A DNA stretch of 64,000 bases. Origin: Globodera rostochiensis. Taxonomy: Eukaryota; Nematoda; Chromadorea; Rhabditida; Heteroderidae. The position numbers and the translations under genes are program-made. The notes beneath the pieces are model-generated. The model saw only the letters and a list, made by a program, of their open reading frames with translations. It did no database searches and was not told where the DNA came from. The DNA lies in assembly GCA_018350325.1 (NCBI GenBank), contig JAEVLN010000020.1:1271796-1335795 (forward strand), given 5' to 3'. This document shows, piece after piece, positions 46,001 through 64,000 of this stretch (position 1 is its first letter; every line of letters begins with the position of its first letter).

Positions 46001-47902
46001 TTTTGCCATTGTTTCCGCGCCACGTTTAGCCCCCCCCCCCCCTCTCTTTTTGCTTCTCGACTTTCTTCGTTGGCCAGCAGTCCGTCCCTCCCCCCCCCCC
46101 CAAAAAACATATTATTGTTATCACTATATTTCCATTTCTTCAGCGTCTTTGGTTCACAGCTGTGCTCTTTGAGATGGAGCCGTGCTCTTCCTCGACTTTA
46201 GTGCTTCTATCATTCGTATAGGTGGGGGGGGGGAGTACTCCCGTCAATCAATCTTGATTTTCAGTCGAAAGCCAAATGCTTTCACAAAACCAGGGGGTTA
46301 TCTTTCTGTCCTTGAAACTAGCGGGCATATCTGACCGGCATTTATTTGCATATGAAACAAACAAAAGATGTTTTATTTTATACATACAATAAATTTGGCG
46401 GTTTTTGGATTCTCAACTTTCAATCTTTTGTCGCTTAATTCATCATCACCGCCTTCGACGACATGTCTAAGCCCGTTTTCAAACCCTTTGACGTGGCCTT
46501 CTCCAATCGGCTCGCAGCCGCCATTCAGAATGGGCCGGTCGCGTTCAGATCGGTCCCTCATTTTTATTCTTTTGTTGCTTAACGAATGGATCCCTTTTTT
46601 TGGATGCAAAATAGTTGAAATAATAATTTGCCCGTATATAATTAAAATATGGGCAACGTCTGTACATCAAGCACTTCATTGCATTCTTGAAAATTTTGTC
46701 TTATAGGGAATTATTTTTGATAAAACTAATGAAACTCCCCCCATTCAGGATCGTTCTCTGTCTCAGAGGCCGCTTTCCGCTCACCCGATTAGCCCTTCCG
46801 GCGATGGACAACTACCGCCGGCACGACCGGTGCGCAAGACGGAATCGGCTGTCATATCCAGCAACGAAGAGCTGGGTCCGGCCAGCGTGAAGAACAGGAT
46901 TGCCCAAATTGGCGCTCAAATTCCGTTGGGTCAACGCGCGGATGGTGGACGACGGGAGGAGGGCCACCGACACGGTGACGGGGGCGGTCAAATATCGGAG
47001 CCCACTCCGGCAATAACGAAGACAATTGTACCTCTCCCGACCGAAGCGCTCAAAGTGAGTTCAAACTGTTTTACCATCTGCAACACTAATTTGGAATGCT
47101 AGAAAGCATTTGGGAAAAATCGTCATCAGCGGGGGTTGCACGGGTTCTCATTTCTCCGTTAAGACGCGTGTCAAGGGTCCTTCAGCCCGCCGGGCACCGT
47201 CCCAGCGCATTGTCGGCGGCCGGCCACCAGCGCCTTCGTCCTCTTCCGTTGTTGAACCAACCGAAGCAGTAACAGAGGCATCAAGTGCTCGACTTACGCC
47301 AAAACCCGCATTAAAAAAAGGGCTGGAATCACCACAACAACGGCAGAAAAATGAAGAAGAGAAAGAATCGCCGTCCTCCAGAACTGCGAATTTGTGGGCG
47401 GACGACAGTATGAAGAGGGCTCTGGAACGGATGTCGAAGGATTATGTCGATGAGGAGGCTGATCATCAACAGACGTCCAGGATTAAACCACCTCCGGTGC
47501 CCGCTACAAAGGCTCAGGGGCCAAAGACAGCAGCAAAGGCCGTGCCGCCACCGGTCAAGCCGAAGAAGACGCGGTCGTCCATCTTTTCCTCGTCGAGCAG
47601 CGACGACGATTTAGGCTTTGCTAAAGTGATGGGCTCGACACCGCTTCCGGGCACAAAAGAAGTGCCAAAGGCGACGGCCGTGCCGTCAAACCAACAACAG
47701 AACAAACAGCAGCAGCCTCCGTTCAGCTACAAAAAGACGACTAGTGAGCAGTGTTTTATTGTAATTATCGAAAAATCCGTTATCTTTTACTTATTACCCT
47801 CAGGCATTAAAAACATTTTAATTGAGCAAAATCGGTGTTTTTATTTCAGCATCTGTAAAAGCGCGCAAAGGTCTCTTCGATGACTCTGAGTCGGATTTTT
47901 GA
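43067..47902 (+). CDS. WASH complex subunit 2 (FAM21) homologue
   Basis: FAM21 is the long flexible subunit of the WASH complex, linking retromer and other partners to endosomal actin nucleation. N-terminal helical blocks resemble the family (FSEHAHHWTLKQDNE, LKNALQNTVSGMFDSIQHFE, ISREEFERRTINTISNAIHR), then LGELPPIIGTPEFYAAL (family LPYLIGSKLFM). The rest is acidic and disordered with LF-type motifs (KSLFSSSSEDGDNDEEELF, KGLFDDSESDF at the end) and TRVKGPSARRAPSQR, like the FAM21 basic motif. Exons: 43067-43159, 43208-43372, 43831-44180, 44496-45000, 45060-45197, 45262-45360, 46749-47054, 47164-47743 and 47850-47902. Total 2289 nt, 762 residues, shorter than the ~1,300 of human FAM21. The 1.4-kb intron after 45360 and the interval 43373-43830 could hide further exons. 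Confidence 0.78.
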
Positions 47903-50900
47903 GGAATTCCGCTGATTTTATGCCTTTTCGGGTCCTTTCTATGCGAGATAATATGCGATAGAGTAATAAATGTTTACACATACTTATGCAATTGAAAACA
48001 CTTCTTTATTATAAACTTTAAATTGTGTTGTATTTTAAATTGTTATTTGGTTTTTGTTTTGGGTTGGTTAGTGATGAATTTAACCACGACGCGACAAAGA
48101 TGTAATTGATAATAAATGGCCAAAATTAATTACTCATTAGGTGCATTTTGGGGGTTAATAATATTTCATTTTGTCATAAAGTGTGTGGAACGGTTTCTGT
48201 CTGTTTCCATTGATGGGAGAATAATCAATTGGGGAAGTTGTGCAAAATTCGGCTGATTGTTTCCCGGAAAATATATTCCCTTCGTATTTCTAATGGATCG
48301 TTGAGAGTTTTATTTACATACCTTTGAACTTGTGCTTAAAAGTCTAAGCTTTAACATTTACGCTTCCATAGAATCCCTCTCCGAGTCCAAAACCGGTTCT
48401 CCGCGTGTCCCGGGGGCGGGACGCCTCCCCCCCCCCCCCCCTCCGTTTCGTACAAATTTCTCCCCCCCCCCCCCCCCTCCCCCCCCCCCCTCCCCACGGC
48501 CGCTCAGTGCACACAAAGAAAGAAAAAAAGAGCAATGAGATGGATAGAAAGAAAAGGGAGTGAAGGGAGGGCAATAAATAAAATTGGGCCCAACAAAGAA
48601 TGCGTTTTTGTGGTGCAGGCTTTGGAATGTGCTCGCCCCATCCCATTGACGCCGCAGGGGCCAAAGATCGCTTTCAGAGAGAGCGGGCGATGTGCCCCCA
48701 CTAACAACCAAATCATTTTCTGCAGCAGAACGACACATTTTCCGGGGATTCTAAGGGACTCCTAAGGACTTTGTTTCTTTATAATCTTTAGGACTTTGGG
48801 TTAAGAGTCATTTTCTGATTATTCAATCCAAAAAACGAATTTTGAGTTGACGACTTTTCTAGAACTGCTTCACGCCTCGGGCATAATTTGTCATCGTCCA
48901 CAAAGAACACCTTTGCTTTCATTTTCGCCCCTTTCCCATTCCCAACCCGCCCCCGCAAAAGCAGAACAAAGGTCGTTTTGTCTGGCCCATCTCCTCAGGG
49001 GCGGCTGGTACGGCTGCCGCCACAAAAAACGCCGTCGCACCCCCCCCCCCCCCCGGGGGAGGGGAAGACGGACGGATTCGACCCCCGAGGGGAAAAGGTA
49101 CATCCGTCCTCCGTCCGTCGTCATCACCGATCCTCGTCCAATCCCTCCCCCCTCCCGACCGTCCATCATTCCAATCGGACTTTATTTTTGTAAACGATCA
49201 AATCCATGCAAAACGGAATTTGCATTTGCGTGGGCGAAGAGACTGTGCAACAAATTAGCTTCTTTTTGCATTTGAGAAGGTTTTTGCCTGAAATTTGTTA
49301 TTATTATTATTTTAAGATTAAATAATAAAACAAACCCCGCGAATTGTGTTGAAGAAATTCCAAAGTTTATATATTTACCGATTTATTCACTCTCCACTGA
49401 CTTTTGGCCTTTTCTTGTCGTCTTTTTTGGCTAAATGTCTTTGAATTTTAGTCCATTCGTCGTCGGTCAATCGTACTAAATAAATACGCGCGCGCATTTT
49501 ATATTTTGTACATAATATTTGTTTTCTTTCCCACCACCACCAGCAGCAGACAAAATGTCGTCGTATCGCAACATTCGTCAAAGTACACAATTGGCGCCGC
49601 GGAGTAAACAGAAAATATGAGAAAAAACACACACTTTCCCTGCGGGGGCGGCGCGGCGGCCCCCGCACGGCGGCGGGGCGGACGGGGGGGCGGGGATCCC
49701 CGCTTTCCCCCCCCCCGTTGCCCCCGTTGTACGGAATGGCACTGCCGCCGTCGCCGTATATAAATAAATGGGCGCGGATGGGAGGCAAATTTATTTATTT
49801 ATTTATGGCTGGCTGTGCGCGATATAATGCGCGGCAGCTGCACAATAAGCGCCGCGACGGCAGCGGTTCAGCTGCTTTTATGTCCCCTGAAGGGATTTGA
49901 TTTGGTGGCGGTTTTGGGACTTTCTTACAAAAATTTACGCGTTTCACTCAATCCATGCGATAATATTCTCTAATAATCTCCGATTCGATTTTGAATTGGC
50001 TGCCAAAGTCAGCTCAGATCATTCTGTTCACCATCCAACCCACCATTTGGCCACTTCACTGTTCAGTTCGATCACATTGATTTTATAGCCAAATAGGTAA
50101 CCATTCGTTTCCCCCGGGGGGGGGGCGTAATCATTCCCCTAAATCTCAATGGCCTTGGGCATCGCGTGGCAATCGATCAAAACTTGCAAATTTCTCCATT
50201 TTTGATTTTTGGACCAACCAACCAACAAGTGTTCAAGTTTTTTTTTTGCAAAATTTTAATCTATCAAACGTCAAAAAATGTTGTTAAAAAAGCATTATTT
50301 ATTTCGGTACAGTATAAATTTATCGTTGTATTACTCATTTTCAGCCCAGCGGTAAATTACCGAAATCCGGTAATTACTGATTTGGGTAATTACCGATTTT
50401 ACTTTTATCGATAATTACCGAAAATTCATTTGCCGCCCCCCAACTCTATTAATAACTAATAGCTAAGTTAAGTTTATGGTAACTAACCCATTTGGGACTG
50501 CGTCAGTCCTTTTACAAATCTTTCTTTATATTTATTTGTCAATCAGTCCCGACAATTTTTTTGGTCCCGGTCTCGGAATGTAGAAAATTTGTTGCCGGTT
50601 TTTGGATTGGAATTTGATGACGGTTCCCACAAATGTCGAAAATTATTAAATATTCGTCAAAATTTGTTCTTTTCTTGCCCCGCCTTAATGGAGCAATTTT
50701 TACTCCCAACCAATTTTCCGACCTTCGTCGCGAAAGTGTTGCGGACGGACGGGCGGACGAAAGCGTTTTTTACTCTCAACGCAAAAAGCCACCTTTAATC
50801 CGCCACATCCCCTCGGGGGAGGGTGAAGATTGGATGATGTTCTTTGATCCTACGCCCCAGGGGTTGGTGAATTCACCCAATCTGGGTCGGATTAAACAGA

Positions 50901-52067
50901 GAGAATTGGAAGATGGATGAGGCGCAGAGGGATGTTTGGTGGAGCTCTGCTGGACGCTTTCGCCTTCGCACCCACCCGCCCAATTTCTTCTTCCCTCATT
51001 CTCTCGAAATGAATGGTTTGTTTGGCTTGGACAACAATTTACCTAATTATGTTCACAATCCAATTAGTGTATTCTTTTTGTCGGGTTTGATCTTTCCAAG
51101 TCCCCCCCCCCTCCCCCAAACCGGCGAGGGTGAAAGAATAATCTTTTGCTTTGTCTTTTCTGATCAGATCATTGGGGGGGGGGGGTCACGGACAGATCAT
51201 TTTGACGTTGTTTCTTTTCTCTTTTCTTTCTCCTATTCCAACGCACTGCCGTCGTCAACCAGCAGTTTTTTAGTGATCATGCGGGTTCTCGTTCTCATGA
51301 AATGAAATCTCCCGACGACCATCCCCGGAGGCGCACTTTACTCTTGCTTCTCTGTCTGGTACTCTCTCACTCTCTGCCTCCTCTCTCTAAACTGAATCTT
51401 TTCTGCTCGTCTGGACTCACCGCGTTCATTTCACTCTTCGCCCCCCCCCCCCGTCAATGTTTTTGCCCCATCCCCCAAAAAATAGCTGCCGCGGCTGTCA
51501 TCGTCACACATCAGCTGATCCATCCCGGCCGCGGCCGCTTATTTGAGAGACGGCGTATCCCTTCACCCGCAAACAGAAAAGTTGCGAAACTCCCCCATAA
51601 ATATACATAATAATGTCCATGCATAAGCAGTCAAATATTTTTGCTAACCAAAATTGAAGTCCCATTAATTTCTGCTCCAAACTCTCGGGAAATGCTTCTC
51701 GAGCAGTGTTTTCATATCCAAAAAAATAATTTGTTTTCTGATTTGACATGGAACCTAAAGGTCTAAACATCGTATGAAAAAGGAAGTTAGGTTTTTTTTA
51801 AATTTCCAACCTCCAAACAATTCTCAGTCAGATTAACACTTTCGTCGGCCGGGGGGGTAGGGAAAGATTAAAAAAGAATTCTCAAGGTCAAATTACAGTA
51901 TCCTTTTTTTTCAAAAAGTGCACTTCCTTTTGTGCATTTAATCACAGGAGAGACAGAGACCATTTTATTTAAGCGATCGCCGGGCAATTCGAATTTCATT
52001 TTTTTTTAAATTTCATTTCTTCTCTCTTGTTTTTGCTTAACTTTGCTTCTCTCCCAATCGCACACAC
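47903..52067. other. Gene-poor region with homopolymers and scattered TATA-like sites
   Basis: About 4 kb with C runs at 48427-48500, 49041-49054, 49709-49716, 51104-51112 and 51442-51452, plus G runs near 50120 and 51174. CGTATATAAATAAATGG at about 49754-49770 is TATA-like. Apart from one possible small gene on the minus strand at 49387-49500, no conserved coding sequence is visible. Long Pro/Arg/Ser frames are artefacts of base composition. Confidence 0.55.
49387..49478 (-). CDS. Possible last exon of a small unrecognised gene
   Basis: A minus-strand frame RLTDDEWTKIQRHLAKKDDK, then a Lys-rich end and TGA, follows a good acceptor (TATTTATTTAG). The composition is protein-like and unlike the surrounding homopolymer frames. 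An upstream MLRYDDILSAA, with a donor within the GGTGGTGGT stretch near 49530, could join in phase to give a ~40-residue basic protein. I know no family for it. A chance frame remains possible. Confidence 0.3.
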
Positions 52068-55000
52068 GGGAGGGGCCCTAGGACGGGACTGGCCGGGAGG
52101 GGCCCTAGGACGGGACTGGCTGGGAGGGGCCCTAGGACGGGACTGGCCGGGAGGGGCCCTAGGACGGGACTGGCTGGGAGGGGCCCTAGGACGGGACTGG
52201 CCGGGAGGGGCCTTAGGACGGGACTGGCCGGGAGGGGCCCTAGGACGGGACTGGCCGGGAGGGGCTCTAGGACGGGACTGGCCGGGAGGGGCTCTAGGAC
52301 GGGACTGGCCGGGAGGGGCTCTAGGACGGGACTGGCCGGGAGGGGCTCTAGGACGGGACTGGCCTGGAGGGGCCCTAGGACGGGACTGGCCGGGAGGGGC
52401 CCTAGGACGGGACTGGCCGGGAGTGGCCCTAGGACGGGACTGGCCGGGAGGGGCCCTAGGACGGGACTGGCCGGGAGGGGCTCTAGGACGGGACTGGCCG
52501 GGAGGGGCTCTAGGACGGGACTGGCCGGGAGGGGCTCTAGGACGGGACTGGCCGGGAGGGGCTCTAGGACGGGACTGGCCGGGAGGGGCCCTAGGACGGG
52601 ACTGGCCGGGAGGGGCCCTAGGACGGGACTGGCCGGGAGGGGCCCTAGGACGGGACTGGCCGGGAGGGGCTCTAGGACGGGACTGGCCGGGAGGGGCCCT
52701 AAGACGGGACTGGCCGGGAGGGCCCTAGGACGGGACTGGCCGGGAGGGGCTCTAGGACGGGACTGGCCGGGAGGGGCCCTAGGACGGGACTGGCCGGGAG
52801 GGGCCCTAGGACGGGACTGGCCGGGAGGGGCCCTAGGACTAACCAGGACGGGAGGGGCCCTAGGACGGGACTGGCTGGGAGGGGCCCTAGGACGGGACTG
52901 GCCGGGAGGGGCCCTAGGACGGGACTGGCCGGGAGGGGCCCTAGGACTAACCAGGACGGGAGGGGCCCTAGGACGGGACTGGCCGGGAGGGGCCCTAGGA
53001 CGGGACTGGCCGGGAGGGGCCCTAGGACGGGACTGGCCGGGAGGGGCCCTAGGACGGGACTGGCCGGGAGGGGCCCTAGGACGGGACTGGCCGGGAGGGG
53101 CTCTAGGACGGGACTGGCCGGGAGGGGCCCTAAGACGGGACTGGCCGGGAGGGCCCTAGGACGGGACTGGCCGGGAGGGGCCTTAGGACGGGACTGGCCG
53201 GGAGGGGCCCTAGGACGGGACTGGCCGGGAGGGGCCCTAGGACGGGACTGGCCGGGAGGGGCCCTAGGACGGGACTGGCCGGGAGGGGCTCTAGGACGGG
53301 ACTGGCCGGGAGGGGCTCTAGGACGGGACTGGCCGGGAGGGGCTCTAGGACGGGACTGGCCGGGAGGGGCCCTAGGACGGGACTGGCCGGGAGGGGCCCT
53401 AGGACGGGACTGGCCGGGAGGGGCCCTAGGACGGGACTGGCCGGGAGGGGCCCTAGGACGGGACTGGCCGGGAGGGGCTCTAGGACGGGACTGGCCGGGA
53501 GGGGCTCTAGGACGGGACTGGCCGGGAGGGGCTCTAGGACGGGACTGGCCGGGAGGGGCTCTAGGACGGGACTGGCCGGGAGGGGCCCTAGGACGGGACT
53601 GGCCGGGAGGGGCCCTAGGACGGGACTGGCCGGGAGGGGCCCTAGGACGGGACTGGCCGGGAGGGGCTCTAGGACGGGACTGGCCGGGAGGGGCCCTAAG
53701 ACGGGACTGGCCGGGAGGGCCCTAGGACGGGACTGGCCGGGAGGGGCTCTAGGACGGGACTGGCCGGGAGGGGCCCTAGGACGGGACTGGCCGGGAGGGG
53801 CCCTAGGACGGGACTGGCCGGGAGGGGCCCTAGGACTAACCAGGACGGGAGGGGCCCTAGGACGGGACTGGCTGGGAGGGGCCCTAGGACGGGACTGGCC
53901 GGGAGGGGCCCTAGGACGGGACTGGCCGGGAGGGGCCCTAGGACTAACCAGGACGGGAGGGGCCCTAGGACGGGACTGGCCGGGAGGGGCCCTAGGACGG
54001 GACTGGCCGGGAGGGGCCCTAGGACTAACCAGGACGGGAGGGGCCCTAGGACGGGACTGGCCGGGAGGGGCCCTAGGACGGGACTGGCCGGGAGGGGCCC
54101 TAGGACGGGACTGGCCGGGAGGGGCCCTAGGACGGGACTGGCCGGGAGGGGCCCTAGGACGGGACTGGCCGGGAGGGGCTCTAGGACGGGACTGGCCGGG
54201 AGGGGCTCTAGGACGGGACTGGCCGGGAGGGGCCCTAGGACGGGACTGGCCGGGAGGGGCCCTAGGACGGGACTGGCCGGGAGGGGCCCTAGGACGGGAC
54301 TGGCCGGGAGGGGCCCTAGGACGGGACTGGCCGGGAGGGGCCCTAGGACGGGACTGGCCGGGAGGGGCCCTAAGACGGGACTGGCCGGGAGGGCCCTAGG
54401 ACGGGACTGGCCGGGAGGGGCTCTAGGACGGGACTGGCCGGGAGGGGCCCTAGGACGGGACTGGCCGGGAGGGGCCCTAGGACTGGCCAGGACGGGAGGG
54501 GCCCTAGGACGGGACTGGCCGGGAGGGGCTCTAGGACGGGACTGGCCGGGAGGGGCCCTAGGACTGGCCAGGACGGGAGGGGCCCTAGGACGGGACTGGC
54601 CGGGAGGGGCCCTAGGACTGGCCAGGACGGGAGGGGCCCTAGGACGGGACTGGCCGGGAGGGGCCCTAGGACGGGACTGGCCGGGAGGGGCCCTAGGACT
54701 GGCCAGGACGGGAGGGGCCCTAGGACGGGACTGGCCGGGAGGGGCTCTAGGACGGGACTGGCCGGGAGGGGCCCTAGGACGGGACTGGCCGGGAGGGGCC
54801 CTAGGACGGGACTGGCCGGGAGGGGCCCTAAGACGGGACTGGCCGGGAGGGCCCTAGGACGGGACTGGCCGGGAGGGGCTCTAGGACGGGACTGGCCGGG
54901 AGGGGCCCTAGGACGGGACTGGCCGGGAGGGGCCCTAGGACGGGACTGGCCGGGAGGGGCTCTAGGACGGGACTGGCCGGGAGGGGCCCTAAGACGGGAC

Positions 55001-55133
55001 TGGCCGGGAGGGCCCTAGGACGGGACTGGCCGGGAGGGGCTCTAGGACGGGACTGGCCGGGAGGGGCCCTAGGACTGGCCAGGACGGGAGGGGCCCTAGG
55101 ACGGGACTGGCCGGGAGGGGACCTAGGACTGGC
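52068..55133 (+). repeat. 27-bp GC-rich minisatellite array, about 113 units, with higher-order repeats
   Basis: The unit contains GGGGCCCTAGGACGGGAC followed by TGGCCGGGA, 27 bp. Variants include CTCTAGG for CCCTAGG, CTAAGACG for CTAGGACG, a unit lacking one G (GGGAGGGCCCTAGG), and hybrids such as AGGACTAACCAGGACGGG and AGGACTGGCCAGGACGGG. The same ordered set of variants recurs 997 bp later: the CTAAG variant at 52701/53698, the AGGACTAACC variant at 52838/53835, and GGCTGGG at 52873/53870. Segments of about 37 units have therefore been duplicated. Because 27 is divisible by three, a 233-codon frame (GGALGRDWP repeated) runs through the start. It has no start context or homologue I recognise. 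Confidence 0.97.
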
Positions 55134-57719
55134 TACCGGACGGCGGCATATAACTCATGCATTTTCGGGGGGTATTTGCCATCTCTCCTCCTTTCTTTCA
55201 CCTCATTTCTTTTCGTTCTTTTCTTTCTGTTTGTGTGTCTGCTCAACGCTATTTCGCCTGTCCACCATCTCTGCCGTTCTCTAGTGTATTTTACCTCCAA
55301 AAAACATTCTTTCGTCCGTCCGCCCATTTCATTCACTTTTCTGCTCCCTAATGAAAGCCCTCCAATGTGTGCTGTGCGCCTTGCCAGTTTCCTCTTTCCT
55401 TCGCAATTCGTCAAATTTTGGCCTTAACCCATTGGGTCGGTCGTCTGCTGCTTAAGGAAATGCCAAGAAATGAGTGAATGTGCCGTGCCAATCCCCTGCA
55501 GGCTTACCAGCTTATCAGAAACTAATGCACCTTCTAAGATCTACGAATTCTTTATTACCTCCTTCCTGCTCATTGCCATCGTCCTAATCATCCGTTAATC
55601 ATCCTCCCCCCTCAAAAAGCACATTTTGTCCACAACCACGCATAAACATCCATCCGTCCCCTCGGGGGTCGTCTGTGTGTTTGAGTGTGGGACACGAATG
55701 TTGCATTATTCGCATCGGGTTGCTTTGCGATTAGCACGGTCTTCCCCACCTTTTCGCCTTTCTTCTCTAAACACTAAACATTATTCCGTTTTTTGGCCGT
55801 TTTGGCCTTGAAAATGCGGGCGAAGATCGTCCCGTTTCTTTCTCAAATCGCCCGCCCCCGGGGGGATGGACGTTGTTCAATTTATCCGTCCGTTGGTCCC
55901 TTCCCAAATTGATTCATTTATCTGCCACCGAAAGAGCGATTTGGTCCCGAACTTTGAGAGGAGATAAGCTGTGGAAGTCGAAGCTGCGTAACTCATTTCA
56001 ACACCAACGAAATCAAACAATTGGCACTATTCTAAAGAGAAGCGAAAAGGCAAAGCGATCAGACAAACCGAAAAAGCGTTCCGGAAAAGTTACTGCTTTC
56101 TGCTGCTTATTCGTACAGCTTTGGCCTTTACTCACTGATGAAAGGGCATTTGCTTATCAGTTCGTTGTTCTCTTCTCGCATTTGTAACGTAACGTCTTAT
56201 GCAATTAGCTTGGGTATGAAGTGCCCCCCCGGCGTTTATTTTATTCTTTCCCTTTTAATGGGCGGGGGCTCTCTGAAAAGGGACCCGCGAATAATCACAC
56301 AAACATAAAAGAACAAATTGATTAGCAATCGATAATGCTACAAAAAAATGAATGAATGAATTGCACAGCGTAAAGGGAGAAACCGGCTTCACTTTCAACC
56401 GATTCAATTCATTTCTGGCCAATCTTTATTTTACAGGGGCCAATGATAATTTTACTATTTTTGGGCGAAATTCGACAAAAGGTCCGGTAAGCAAACATCG
56501 GACAGGACAAAGCTGCAGAATGAGTAATTTAATACGGGTTTCGATCTCAAAATTAAGCAGCAGCAGAATGTGAAAAAAGCAGCATCAAAAAGCGAAACGA
56601 CGACAAAAGGTCCGGACAAAACGACGAAATGTCCGGTAGTGAGGAAAAGGACAAAATGACCGGTCGCACAAATCGGACAAAATATCCGAAAAACATTAGC
56701 AAATTACTGCATAAAGACATTCCATGCTCGTTCCGCAGCTGGCAAGTGGTTTTGTCCCTTTTTTGCTTACCGAAATCGAATACCCTGAATTTAATACAAT
56801 TTAAAAAGTTAATCGTTCTGACATTTTCAAAAACCGTTTAAATGCAAAAGCTTTATTTGGCTCTTAACGATTAGAGCTCGGAATTTTGAAAAAGCCGGGC
56901 CGTTACGGCACTTCAAAGATCGCTGGCTGGCGCCCAGTTGAACGACTCCGTTCAGAAGATAACTTTTAATGTTTTTAGTCTCACAAAGGCACAAATCCGT
57001 TGAGGAGGCCATAACTGAGAGTCGATTTAGTAATTACTAAATTCATAATTTTAAATCGTTTCATTTTTTGCAGATTTTAGAAGACGAAATTCCGCACACT
57101 CCCACAAACCGACGCCTTTTTAAATAATGGAAAAATTCCTTCAAAACCTTTAAAAAGTAAAAAGAAATTTGACCACAAATTAATCCCTCCCAATTCTTTG
57201 GCATCGAAATTCGCGTCAAATACTTCGGCCAGCGACCATTTTTCTTACTGGTATGAATCACTCCAAACGATAAAATCCTTCCGACCATAAATTTTCGCTC
57301 ACAAAGTTTTTGAAGTTGTCTTTATTTTGTTTGTTTGCTGCACATTTTTGGTTTAATCACCAAACGATGACTCACTCACTCACTTTACATCCCCCCAAGG
57401 GAAAAACGATGACTCAGCTTTTTCCAGAAAATGGGGCGGTCAAAAATCATTAAAATCCTTCGATTTGCCCAATACATATAAACTTTTCGCTCTTTAATAT
57501 TTCCATTTCAGCCCAGCGTAACAAATGATGGCACGCATTGGAGTAATGATTGGTCATCAAATTCCCTAAACTGCCAATGTGTCAGGTGGCGCCATTTGTC
57601 GTGGGTTTATTTTGAACTTTTTTGGATTGTCCGCGAAGTGCCAAATTAGCGGAAATGAGAATTTAAGTAACAAATTAGCAGTTAATTTGGTCCCCTTCAT
57701 CTCTTTACAAATCTATGAT

Positions 57720-57861
57720 TTTTATTTTCTCTCTCTCACTCTCTCTTTCTCTAAATCTGTTTTCTCTCTCTTTCTCTAAAGCTATTCTCTCCTCTCTCTT
57801 TCTCACACTCTCATTCTCTATATCTCCTTCTCCTTCTCTCTCTCTCTCTCTCTCTCTCTCT
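57720..57861 (+). repeat. CT-rich microsatellite
   Basis: Pyrimidine-rich simple sequence dominated by CTCTCT and CTTTCT. The last 25 bases (57837-57861) are an almost pure CT repeat. Confidence 0.92.
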
Positions 57862-58312
57862 AATTCTTGTTCGTGATCCGATTTAAAATTTAATCTGTTT
57901 GAACTTTCTAATGCGAATTAATAGCGATATGTATTTGAGTCTCTCTAGGTTTGTTGGACTTTCCTTACACCCAATGGCCCCTATTTCTTATGCCCACTGC
58001 TCTGGTTCCGCATTCCTTGGATTTTTTAAAAATTCCGAAATTTGGGGGGGGGGGGATTATTCCGCTTCCTCGTCTTCTCGCGTTTTTCTCGAGATGGTCC
58101 CCCAATAGTCCGTCCACCGCAGGCCCTCGGGGGCTTCCCATCCCGAGGGTCCTTTCCCCCGAGCATAACACTCAACTACCCCCCCCCCCCTCTCCCACCC
58201 GCGGAGCGGTGCCGGTCCGTCCCTGTCGCGCTCGCGGCGGTCATCGCCCAGAATTTATGTATTGGTTTGGAGCGCAGAGAAAGGGAAAACATAAAAGTTG
58301 ATGGATTGTTGA

Positions 58313-58355
58313 AGAGAGAGAAAGGAGAGAGAGAGAGAGAGAGTGTGAGAGAGAC
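58313..58355 (+). repeat. GA microsatellite
   Basis: Purine-rich GAGA repeat (58328-58342 nearly pure), about 450 bp beyond the CT tract and of opposite strand composition. The two could pair in a transcript, but no element boundary is visible. Confidence 0.85.
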
Positions 58356-61300
58356 AACACATTAGAGAAGAGAAGGTTTTGGATGAGAAAAAGCAGTAAA
58401 GAAGCAGGACAGTAAACGAAAGAGGGGAAGCGTACATTATTAGTGAGCCCCTCCGGGGATAGTGTGGACTCTCGCTTCCCTCCATCTCTAACACAGCTGC
58501 CCTCACAACATTCTGTGTGCACTCACCGTCTTTCGTTTCTCTCTTTCCCTCTCAACACTCTACACTCTCTCTCCGTGTTTTTGTTATTTTCTGTTTTCTC
58601 TTATTTTCGAGAACCGATTCAACCCCACCCCCCCCCCACCCCCCAACCTAACGACACAAACAATTTCGAAAGCCATGAGCCAATTTGGCTTCTGGCTAAT
58701 TTACGACATCCTCCAGAATGAATACGGCGGATTGAATGATGGAAACACTGGAAAAGCTTTTAGAACATAGATCCGGAATGCTAATCCTTCTGATGACATG
58801 CATTGTGTTGCGAAAATCTCTCTCTTTTACAACTCAACTCAACTGGATCATCGGCGGATGATCGCCATTCTTCCGGCCCCCCAAATCTGGATGTCAAATG
58901 TACCTTCCCTCCCTTTATGCCCACCCGCGAAAGTCCCCCCCCCCCCAGGGCACAATCAGCTGATTCTTCCCTTCCTAAAACCACCAATTCGTACGCTCGC
59001 CTTGCCGCTGCTGTCACATCACATCAGTCGCACTCATTGCTCGCTCTGTCCACGGCAAAAATCTTTCATCATCATCATTCTGTGTGTACGCCTTTCTTTT
59101 CCACCCCCCCCCCCCCCCGAGGCAGGCGCATGACCATCCCCGCTTTCCCGTCACCGCATTCTCGACTCTCTTTGACCTGTCCCCGCTTCCCCGTCCTTCC
59201 CCGCGCCCGTTGCCCTCCACCAACCACTTCTTCGCAGCATTTATATTCTCTGTCATGTCAGTAGTTCCACTCTCGGCCCCTCTGTTGCCCAAATGAGAGG
59301 GGGGGGGGACCTTGTTTTTCAGCCGCAAAGGCGGGCTGGCATAATTCCAGCACCTTCTCCACTCTTTTAAGCGTGTTGATGATGCGTTCGTGTATATTTC
59401 TAATCCCGAAATTTGTCCCATGCTCGAGAATGGCGCTTCTCCTCGAAAAGTTTTTGCTTCAAATAGATGGCTCATTTCTCTGTCAAATGGCGGGCAATTC
59501 TTTGTTATCTTTAAAATTGCAATGCAAATTTCAAAAGCACAATGACGTCAATGTCAACGCTCCAATTTGCCCACAACTTTAGCGTCACCAAAGACCAAAG
59601 TTGGCCCATTTCATAAGAAACGACCCCCGAGCGGCGGTTGAGCTCTCTCTTCTTCATTCTCTTTGTCATGTCAATTTGTCCCCAAATTAAGGCCCATTTT
59701 CTTTCATTTGATTTTTTTGGCCCCCAATAAATCAGGCAAAATTCGACCTCCACCAAATTCTTCCCATCCATTTCGTCGTGTTTCCCAAGTGGCACTGGGC
59801 GGCACCCGAGGCGATTTGGCGGGTTTGGGGGGGGGGAGGGAGTGGGGGAGGGCGAGGAGCACTGGCTGGATGATGCGATGACCTTCCCCCGGAGGCCTTT
59901 TCGTCAATGTGATTGGGTTTTTGGCGGTCCAAACGCGCAAAATGTGTTGTCGTCGGCCGGCGCGCCGTTTGGGCGATTGCCAACGCCCAACGGTTTCTCC
60001 ATCCATATAAATGCTCCCCATCCCAAACACAAATTTCGTCACATCCCTCGAGGGGAAGTTTCGTTGGTTTAGTCACTCTCCTCACAACATTACAATGGAC
60101 CGGTCACAAACCGTGTTTCCATATATGCGATCATTGTCATTCATAATCTACTGCATTCATTATTCCAATGATCGGCTCAGATCACAACAAAGCATCAGAC
60201 CAACTTATAATCGGACAATGTCACAGGATTAAGCCCCCCCCCCCTCTGAACCCCCCCCCCCCTCTCCGCCTCTCCTCCGACCCTACCATACAGTGCATTT
60301 GGGATTTGAATTATGTTTAGCACCATCGACCTTCTCTTAAATTATCAAACTGCCAAAATCTTGAAAATCAATTTGTTCAGAAAAACCAAAACTCATTCCA
60401 CCAATGTCCTCCGTCCCACCCCACCCACTCTCCATGATGATGATCTTTACACTAAATCAGGGGGAGAAAGAATATTCTTCTCTACTTCTTCGATGGATGT
60501 TGTGTAATGACGCCTTTAGACAGACCCACCCGTATTGGGTTGTCCCATGATTAATGGAGGAATTGCCCCCACCCCGGAGGGGGGGGGGGGGGGGGGAACA
60601 TGAGGGATTTGCATTCTTTTGCCTACGGCCATTCTTTTCTTTTTCAAGCACCCCCTAGCGATCTAAGCACATAAATTGGCTTTTCTCCGGACGGACCAGT
60701 GACAACGAAGACCAACACAAGCAGCAGCTACATAGACCCACCCGTTTCTTGTTCTCCCCGTCCTCCGCTCTTCGCTTCCAATTTCAATTCCCCCGTTTCC
60801 TTTTTTCGTCCCCCCCCCCCCGTCTCTCCTTATTCCTCCTCTCCCTCTCCCCCACTCATTTCCCCCCCCCCCATCCCTCCCCATTCAAACACACACAACA
60901 TCATCTTGGATGAGTGTCGTTCTCGTCCGAGACACGCCGACCCACCCGCACCGGGCGGGCGTTGGCTCTGAGCCAAGCACGGGAGCGGACGAATGAATAA
61001 ATGGTGGACATTGTCCTTCCCCCTTCCCCTGCGGGCTCGTTTTCCCCGTCCAATACTCATTTGCTGCTGCTAGCCATTGCCCACCCACCCACCCCCTCAC
61101 TGCATCCCCGGAGGGGTCGGTGCCTGTCCGCGCCGGCCTCCGCATTGCCCTGGCGGCCTTCCCCTCCGCCCCATCTCATTCTCACATCCACCACACACAC
61201 AGCAGCTGAAAGAGTGAGTATGGGACTACTGAGTGCACTTTGTGCTGAGTGAGTGAGTGGTCGAGCCAACAGCACAAAAAAGACTATACACAACACATCC

Positions 61301-62396
61301 CCCGAGGCACATTCAAATGATGAAATCCTCTCTCCCGAGTTTTTAGAGGGTGCAGGTTGCTTGCCCATTTCCCATGTTTCGAAATTTACTTTATTTCATT
61401 TCGGGCTCTGTTTTCTTGAAGACTTCCCCTTTTCTGAGCATTCTAATGCGTTTTCGAGTGGAAATGTTGTGAAGGGGGGGGGGGGAATTGGGGGGGGGGC
61501 TCGTTGACCTTAATCGCGGCGATCCGTCGGACATTTTCTCCCCCACCATCACTCGCCTCTTTTTACAGTTTTTCATTGTCGCAACGGTGTAAGCTGGTGC
61601 CCGTCTCTTCTCCTCTCTTTACCCCTCCAAAAATCCTCCGATTAAATTTTTGTGAAGAAAAAAATGATCGCTTCAAATCAAGAAATATTTTTTGGTTCGA
61701 TTTACTTTTATGCCCCTTAAAATACAAAAAAAAATGCCATAATCTTCCCTTGAGGGGATGGATGCTTTTTTCCAACTCATTTTTACTTCCAACGAATGTA
61801 ACTCTGACCTAATTGAGCATTTTTTGTTGGTGACCTCACCGGGGAAAGACCAGACAATAATTTGGGCGGGCTTCCCCCGCCGTTGGCTTGGCTTGGGTTT
61901 GCCATCCCCTCCCCCCCCCCGATGGACTTTCACTCTTCTCCCCGTCAGTCTGTGGGGGGGGGGGAGGATCCATCCCCCCCCCCCTCACCTTATGGCGGTG
62001 CCCTCCGTTGGGGTGGTCATTCGTCCATTTCCTTTGGTCGCGTCGTTTAGCAATTTTTTCCATCGGAGCAAAGAATTTTTCACAAAATATTCGTTCGTTT
62101 AGGTGTTTTGCCTAATACATTAAGATTTAAATAATCTAAGAATGGCATTCCATTCCATTGAATTGCAAAGGCTTTATCATTCCTTTCTCTTACCGTCAAC
62201 AAATTTTGATTTATTTACTTGTTCTTTCTCGCTCTTCTGTCTGATCAATTTTCTTCTCACTATTGGTTACTCTTTATCTCCTGATCATCTCCCCGTCTGA
62301 TCTACATATACGTCTGGCCTGTCTTTCTCTCTCACAGTGTCTTCTGTTGCTCTCTCTGATCGCTCTGATCTATGCCGGCGGCACTCGGCGCCACTC

Positions 62397-62504
62397 CCCG
62401 TCCGGTCAACCCGTAGATCCGAACTAGTCTCTCGAGTCCTCGCCTCCTGAGGCACGGACCCCATTTGGGCAGACTGGCTCGGCGTTTCGGGTGGATCGTG
62501 CGGG
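62397..62504 (+). ncRNA. mir-100: miR-100 precursor hairpin
   Basis: The 5' arm holds AACCCGTAGATCCGAACT from 62408, matching the first 18 bases of the widely conserved miR-100; only the 3' end (AGTCT) differs. The seed ACCCGTA is intact. The opposite arm (62471-62492, AGACTGGCTCGGCGTTTCGG...) pairs back along most of its length, with a few mismatches typical of animal microRNA duplexes. The base is extended by CCCGTCCGGTC against GGATCGTGCGGG. The loop is about 40 bases. C. elegans has the diverged miR-51 family instead. The hairpin lies about 520 bp upstream of let-7 on the same strand, as in the ancestral bilaterian cluster. Mature ends are estimated. Confidence 0.9.
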
Positions 62505-62916
62505 AGTACCGACAGCGGATGGCCCACCGCAAACGACGACAACATTTCGACCATATTTATTCAAATTGCTACACTATTATTCCCCGAGGGGCACTATTAT
62601 TCCCTAAAAATCAAAATGCCAACCCCAAAATATTTAATATTTACTAAAGTGTCAGATTGCCGACAAAGCTCTTTTCAAAAGAAAACAATTTTGGTCTGCC
62701 GAATAAAATAATGATTAGGAAAAAGCAATTTTGATCTGTCGAGAATTTAGAAAATTTGGTTTTATTAAAGCGAAAAATGAAAAGCAATTTTGGGTTGCAT
62801 TTATTGAGAATTTGATGGGCGGGAACCGATTCGTTCTAGCTAGCAAGAAAAGGTTCATTTTCTGCGTCTTTGTGGAAATCTTGGTAACTACGGCACACCA
62901 ACGTATCTGCACCACC

Positions 62917-63010
62917 GGGTTCCGTCAAGCTGAGGTAGTAGGTTGTATAGTTCTGGAACGGTATCTGTTGGAGGAAACTAAGCAGCCTGCTCACTCGCCA
63001 GACGGAACCC
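62917..63010 (+). ncRNA. let-7: let-7 microRNA precursor hairpin
   Basis: The sequence at 62931-62952 is identical to the 22-base mature let-7 conserved from worms to humans; it begins TGAGGTAGTAGG and ends TATAGTT. The 3' arm (about 62976-62997, AACTAAGCAGCCTGCTCACT) pairs with it using wobbles and small bulges. The stem is closed by a perfect 10-bp helix: GGGTTCCGTC (62917-62926) against GACGGAACCC (63001-63010). The terminal loop is about 23 bases. let-7 represses lin-41 and other timing genes at the larval-to-adult switch. It is likely co-transcribed with the miR-100 hairpin upstream. Confidence 0.98.
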
Positions 63011-63161
63011 ATCGCGGACCCAGCGGCACGGCAATCTCCGATCCAAACATCGAGCGTCATCGCCTCTGATCAGCAGCAGTCTCTCTTCTCGGTCGCAGAA
63101 CATTAGGGGACCAAATTCAATTAAAAAAACATTCGAAATTTTAAACTGATAGGATAAAAGA

Positions 63162-63727: not shown

Positions 63728-64000
63728 TCATTTGTTGCTGGCCGCCTTCAACTGCTTCATACGGTTGAGTGCCGAACCGGCCTTGAACCACTCAATTTGA
63801 CCTTCGTTCAGCGTATGCTGCAGCTCAACTTCGTCCGCACTGCCATCTTTGTGCTGAAATTTTGATTTTAACTTTTTTATTCACAAGAATTTTTTGGTTA
63901 AATGTCTTTTTGAAATTGTTAACCACCTTCAAAACGCATTTGACCGGCTTCCCGGGCGCGAGTCCGCCAAGGCCGAGCAGCGACACACGGTCGTCCGGAC
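63728..64000 (-). CDS. aco-2: Mitochondrial aconitase (ACO2), 3' end only
   Basis: Aconitate hydratase of the citric acid cycle, a [4Fe-4S] enzyme of the mitochondrial matrix. The visible C-terminus reads [20 protein letters not shown], then across an intron [20 protein letters not shown] and [20 protein letters not shown] before the stop. This matches ACO2 (human ends [20 protein letters not shown]), not the cytosolic IRP1 form. Exons visible: 63927 to beyond 64000, and 63728-63853. The intron is a standard GT-AG. The catalytic domains and cluster-binding cysteines lie to the right, outside the window. Confidence 0.93.

Follow-up and report, generated by a model that had tools for sequence, protein, structure and literature searches.

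A linked miR-100 and let-7 hairpin pair in the cyst nematode Globodera rostochiensis

Introduction

Does a stretch of Globodera rostochiensis DNA in which the letters of miR-100 and let-7 lie close together on one strand hold a copy of the ancestral animal miR-100/let-7 cluster, and has the linkage been kept since that ancestor? Many animals share an identical mature let-7. A third member, miR-125/lin-4, completes the cluster in flies and humans (PMC3353893). A first-pass annotation of the window (the whole 64,000-nucleotide stretch analysed here, C13:1271796-1335795) had read let-7 over 22 bases and miR-100 over its first 18, each in a foldable hairpin, 523 bp apart and co-oriented, and had concluded that this nematode genome keeps the old linkage.

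Results

Mature sequences and copy number

Direct reading of the window gave the mature miR-100 letters AACCCGTAGATCCGAACTAGTCT and the mature let-7 letters TGAGGTAGTAGGTTGTATAGTT at the following positions.

62408..62430, + strand: predicted mature miR-100, on the 5' arm, identical over 23 nt to Meloidogyne incognita miR-100b
62931..62952, + strand: predicted mature let-7, on the 5' arm, identical over 22 nt to M. incognita and Bursaphelenchus xylophilus let-7

The let-7 letters show 0/22 mismatches against both of those species (PMC4524723, PMC2953492), and the seed of the let-7 family, GAGGTAG, is present. For miR-100, which carries the miR-99/100 family seed ACCCGTA, the 18-base identity first reported extends to 23 of 23 bases when compared with M. 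incognita miR-100b (0 mismatches; letters from PMC4524723), while B. xylophilus miR-100 is the same at 21/23 (2 mismatches; letters from PMC2953492). The final bases, beyond those 18, are Meloidogyne's too, and appear as no peculiarity of this genome. The coordinates confirm the spacing and orientation claimed, with the two mature starts 523 bp apart on the + strand, well inside the ~2 kb on one strand that we took to mark a cluster.

Across the whole genome (92,606,168 bases, or 92.6 Mb, in 80 contigs), a let-7 20-mer matched once at up to 2 mismatches (0 matches for its reversed control), and a miR-100 18-mer had one exact match. At up to 3 mismatches the miR-100 18-mer gave 17 matches and the reversed control 28; since the control outnumbers the query, the 16 looser matches are noise and only the exact one counts, and additional miR-100 paralogues among these loci were rejected. 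One of them (L005, 2 mismatches) had a moderate fold (z -2.91, 19/22 paired), but L004, carrying the identical word, folded poorly (13/22 paired) and the control exceeded the pattern, so L005 was not counted as a paralogue. Among the loci folded, the 13 on the minus strand (7 miR-100-like, 6 lin-4-like) were folded in match orientation and without z-scores. With uniform bases, 0.0027 exact matches to an 18-mer and 1e-5 to a 22-mer are expected by chance, and for a co-oriented 22-mer/23-mer pair less than 1 kb apart the expectation is about 3e-16.

Predicted hairpins

Both mature sequences lie in predicted hairpins, as had been claimed, and the comparison with shuffled sequence does not refute either.

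62400..62500, + strand: miR-100 precursor hairpin, -47.1 kcal/mol (z -3.25), equalled or beaten by 1 of 200 shuffles; no RF00104 match
62474..62495, + strand: predicted miR-100 star, on the 3' arm; placed solely by 2-nt overhangs in the modelled fold
62915..63010, + strand: let-7 precursor hairpin, -50.7 kcal/mol (z -7.19), equalled or beaten by 0 of 200 shuffles; RF00027 match below cut-off
62978..62999, + strand: predicted let-7 star, on the 3' arm; placed solely by 2-nt overhangs in the modelled fold

Wider cuts gave z -3.05 for miR-100 (62385-62505, 3/200 shuffles equally good) and z -4.57 for let-7 (62890-63020, 0/200). Of the first 22 bases of the mature sequence, the predicted folds pair 19 in miR-100 and 18 in let-7; of the 16 bases below the mature start they pair 10 and 12, respectively, and the first mature base is unpaired in both. 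The miR-100 arms are separated by 44 nt, a long stretch that is itself folded. Neither predicted star is followed by a CNNC motif at 16-20 bases.

A blind fold scan with 95-nt windows over 7 kb, in which 162 windows at or below an energy of -25 were scored against 40 shuffles each, ranked the let-7 hairpin 4th; the miR-100 hairpin was absent among the 14 windows listed, and no third microRNA was accepted among them. The let-7 hairpin aside, the listed windows were aconitase-gene sequence, C/G runs and, at ~60.9 kb, a GC-rich stretch. Folding thus supports both loci but alone would not single them out; sequence identity does. The C and G runs at 61906-61985 pair with one another in strong predicted folds, and are probably simple sequence rather than a microRNA.

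Rfam profile searches

At Rfam gathering scores no match was obtained anywhere in the window. In a permissive search the let-7 profile RF00027 aligned in full (84 model positions) to 62925-63002 at 42.0 bits (E 7.6e-7), short of its 53.5-bit gathering cut-off, and had no other match at E<=0.001 genome-wide (57/4945 candidates scored). The let-7 family assignment is kept despite this score, the cut-off being a curators' threshold and not a biological feature. The mir-10 profile RF00104 gave 0 matches (59/7398 candidates scored), and matched in no genome searched, controls included; the assignment of miR-100 rests on its exact mature sequence together with the hairpin and the linkage. As a control, mir-1 was recovered (RF00103, 65.4 bits at C5:881431-881506), which indicates that the profile search works for one microRNA family in this genome. 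Matches to snoR29 and ceN65 fell under the cut-off and were taken as chance. It is of practical relevance to annotation that the gathering cut-offs miss both microRNA genes in this window.

Searches for miR-125/lin-4

The first-pass annotation had invoked an ancestral cluster of three genes, with miR-125 as the third; a cluster of three was not recovered here, as sequence-word, RF00052 and fold searches detected no miR-125/lin-4. None was accepted in the window or in the next 19.9 kb. Genome-wide, a lin-4 18-mer at up to 3 mismatches gave 11 matches (8 for its reversed control) and an exact lin-4 11-mer gave 6 (9 for the control); these matches were folded and none was accepted. RF00052 had 0 matches among the 69/1411 candidates scored, and the control search with this profile matched one bacterium, Thermus composti. 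The locus L029 (C45:314848-314865) has a stable fold (z -4.13, 15/21 paired), but 3 of its 18 bases differ from lin-4, two of them within the first three, and it was not accepted; neither was L024, which pairs at 16/22 but also differs at 3/18 bases. The word at L029 recurs at L022 (C2:1577046-1577063) and is possibly a repeat.

A third member is in any case not required of a nematode cluster, because that of Brugia is reported without mir-125, which was not identified there (PMC3282659). For M. incognita, lin-4 is listed (PMC5398497). We do not claim that miR-125/lin-4 is absent from Globodera; the result is non-detection within the limits of these searches. That cyst nematodes have retained a single-copy miR-100/let-7 pair, with miR-125/lin-4 moved out of the cluster or lost from the genome, strikes us as a rather unlikely but specific proposal. 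If true, it would make Globodera suited to studying the role of this minimal pair in the timing of development, cyst arrest being one example.

Discussion

Relation to known clusters

Linkage of let-7 and miR-100 is already in print for nematodes, plant parasites included, and the Globodera copy is another case; the claim that the linkage is kept here holds, but not as a novelty. The closest counterpart is the M. incognita cluster (PMC4524723), which likewise lies on one strand and has the same let-7 over 22 nt and the same miR-100b over 23 nt, and from which both microRNAs are detected by RT-PCR. It differs in its spacing (about 350 bp, compared with 523 bp between mature starts here) and in that M. 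incognita has three miR-100 paralogues, compared with one exact copy here; the portions of that source available to us do not state which paralogue is clustered or in what order. In Brugia, too, let-7 and miR-100 are linked in a nematode cluster reported without mir-125 (PMC3282659), although this is a clade III animal parasite with four mir-100 paralogues (PMC4524723).

The Drosophila let-7-Complex also holds miR-100 and let-7 together, with a name order of miR-100, let-7, but it includes miR-125 and has been demonstrated to be transcribed as one unit (PMC9247461), whereas near the Globodera pair no miR-125 was detected and a common transcript is putative. In C. elegans, homologous families interact in developmental timing but are not clustered. 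The first-pass annotation had given the diverged C. elegans relatives of miR-100 as miR-51-58; the divergence stands, but the range is mir-51 to mir-56 (PMC3353893). In the tables of PMC2486268, miR-58 is grouped with bantam and miR-57 with miR-10, miR-57 having a looser likeness to human miR-99a/100.

No statement of let-7/miR-100 linkage in Globodera was found in the parts of the literature available to us, which include PMC12461141 and PMC13195034, and a Heterodera glycines microRNA paper comparing Globodera (named in PMC12461141) may contain one; in excerpts of PMC11983496, PMC4428239, PMC4842261, PMC5709059 and PMC11366395, no further linkage of the two was found. What is added here is that the pair, with mature letters identical to those of M. 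incognita, is now placed in a cyst nematode. The two species together suggest that the pair was already linked in the common ancestor of cyst nematodes and M. incognita. The general view of microRNA cluster evolution is unchanged.

A proposed mode of action

It is highly probable, in our assessment, that the locus is the Globodera copy of the ancestral animal miR-100/let-7 cluster, and that one transcript yields two microRNAs that repress their targets; retention of the linkage from the ancestor is the best reading of its arrangement. One primary transcript, running left to right, would carry both hairpins, and Drosha and Dicer would process each of them, the 5' arm yielding a product of 22-23 nt. 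The miR-100 and let-7 products would be taken up by Argonaute, let-7 then repressing late developmental-timing genes and miR-100 acting on its own or on overlapping targets.

We infer the single transcript, the processing, the expression and the targets from relatives. These steps draw their support from expression in M. incognita and in B. xylophilus, where miR-100 and let-7 are both strongly sequenced (PMC2953492), from the Drosophila transcript and from C. elegans genetics, in which loss of mir-52 suppresses the timing defects of let-7-family mutants (PMC3353893). Against this reading, loss of the mir-51 family does not suppress let-7(n2853) itself (PMC3353893), and levels in M. incognita need not go together: reads number 2,870,101 for miR-100b and 223 for let-7, with let-7 higher by RT-PCR than by sequencing (PMC4524723). 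Read numbers so far apart mean that equal output from the pair is not to be expected.

For candidate targets, lin-41 was sought via NHL repeats, which gave 14 matches. For the NHL gene on contig C56, Drosophila Thin was a stronger match (E 3.9e-50) than TRIM71 (4.1e-38), and no match was obtained for the NHL piece on contig C4. Target sites were scanned in six loci, without defined 3' UTRs, and comprised four 6-mer let-7 sites and no 7-mer site for let-7 or miR-100.

Alternative explanations

The same arrangement could be produced by two working neighbour microRNA genes with separate promoters, whose linkage persists passively or through regulation that they share. The 523 bp have room for a second promoter, and the wide gap between miR-100b and let-7 reads in M. 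incognita, which has several miR-100 paralogues, would be in keeping with separate control. The shared strand and short spacing seen here argue for a common transcript instead, as do the single transcript of Drosophila and the ~350 bp of M. incognita, and we consider separate promoters unlikely. Further points against the preferred reading are the sub-cut-off RF00027 score, the RF00104 miss, the failure of the blind scan to list miR-100, the 44-nt gap between its arms and the lack of a CNNC motif.

Rfam scores that are absent or under the cut-off would also be seen if the hairpins were decayed remnants that keep their letters but yield no microRNA. Yet 45/45 mature bases agree with M. incognita while the remainder has drifted, a pattern that points to selection, and both hairpins fold well, leaving decay very improbable. 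As mature let-7 is common to many animals, a chance match or contaminating DNA from another animal might be entertained; the locus, however, lies inside a contig of 1,487,865 bases beside a cyst-nematode aconitase gene, the 3' end of its miR-100 is that of M. incognita, and the chance expectation is negligible. This explanation we judge to be vanishingly improbable, and the retained ancestral cluster is preferred. As far as its letters go, the locus is real, well identified and ordinary.

Genomic surroundings

The cluster had been placed in a gene desert, which describes its left side but not its right. To the left, no Pfam domain was found at 47001-62000 in six frames. To the right lies the end of a protein-coding gene.

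63728..64000, - strand: 3' end of a mitochondrial aconitase gene, from a gene model, Pfam PF00330 and PF00694, and homologues; not part of the cluster

This gene has 14 exons on the - strand, with its start codon at 67593 (window numbering, past the window end). It is convergent with the cluster and stops at 63728-63730, leaving 729 bp (~0.73 kb) between the stop codon and the predicted let-7 star. Among named entries, it is best matched by one from Heterodera schachtii (93% identity) and by a UniRef entry of G. rostochiensis, and these homologues bear out the nematode host that had been read from the sequence. The UniRef protein is identical except that it is without 13 + 15 residues of the 775-residue protein here, probably through a gene-model error in that entry. 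Such agreement points to G. rostochiensis, or to a species very close to it, as the source.

Upstream of the cluster, a pyrimidine-rich stretch at 62324-62337, noted by eye, has CACAG at its end, lies 71 bases ahead of mature miR-100, and is a possible splice or trans-splice acceptor of the putative primary transcript. Farther left, a 27-bp minisatellite at 52067-55129 (113.7 copies, 94% match) contains open reading frames of up to 421 aa and with no Pfam domain, which are probably not genes; it is open on both strands because its 27-bp unit is a multiple of three. Within the aconitase gene, 12/13 introns are GT-AG and 1/13 is GC-AG, the latter at position 3248 of C13:1333000-1342999.
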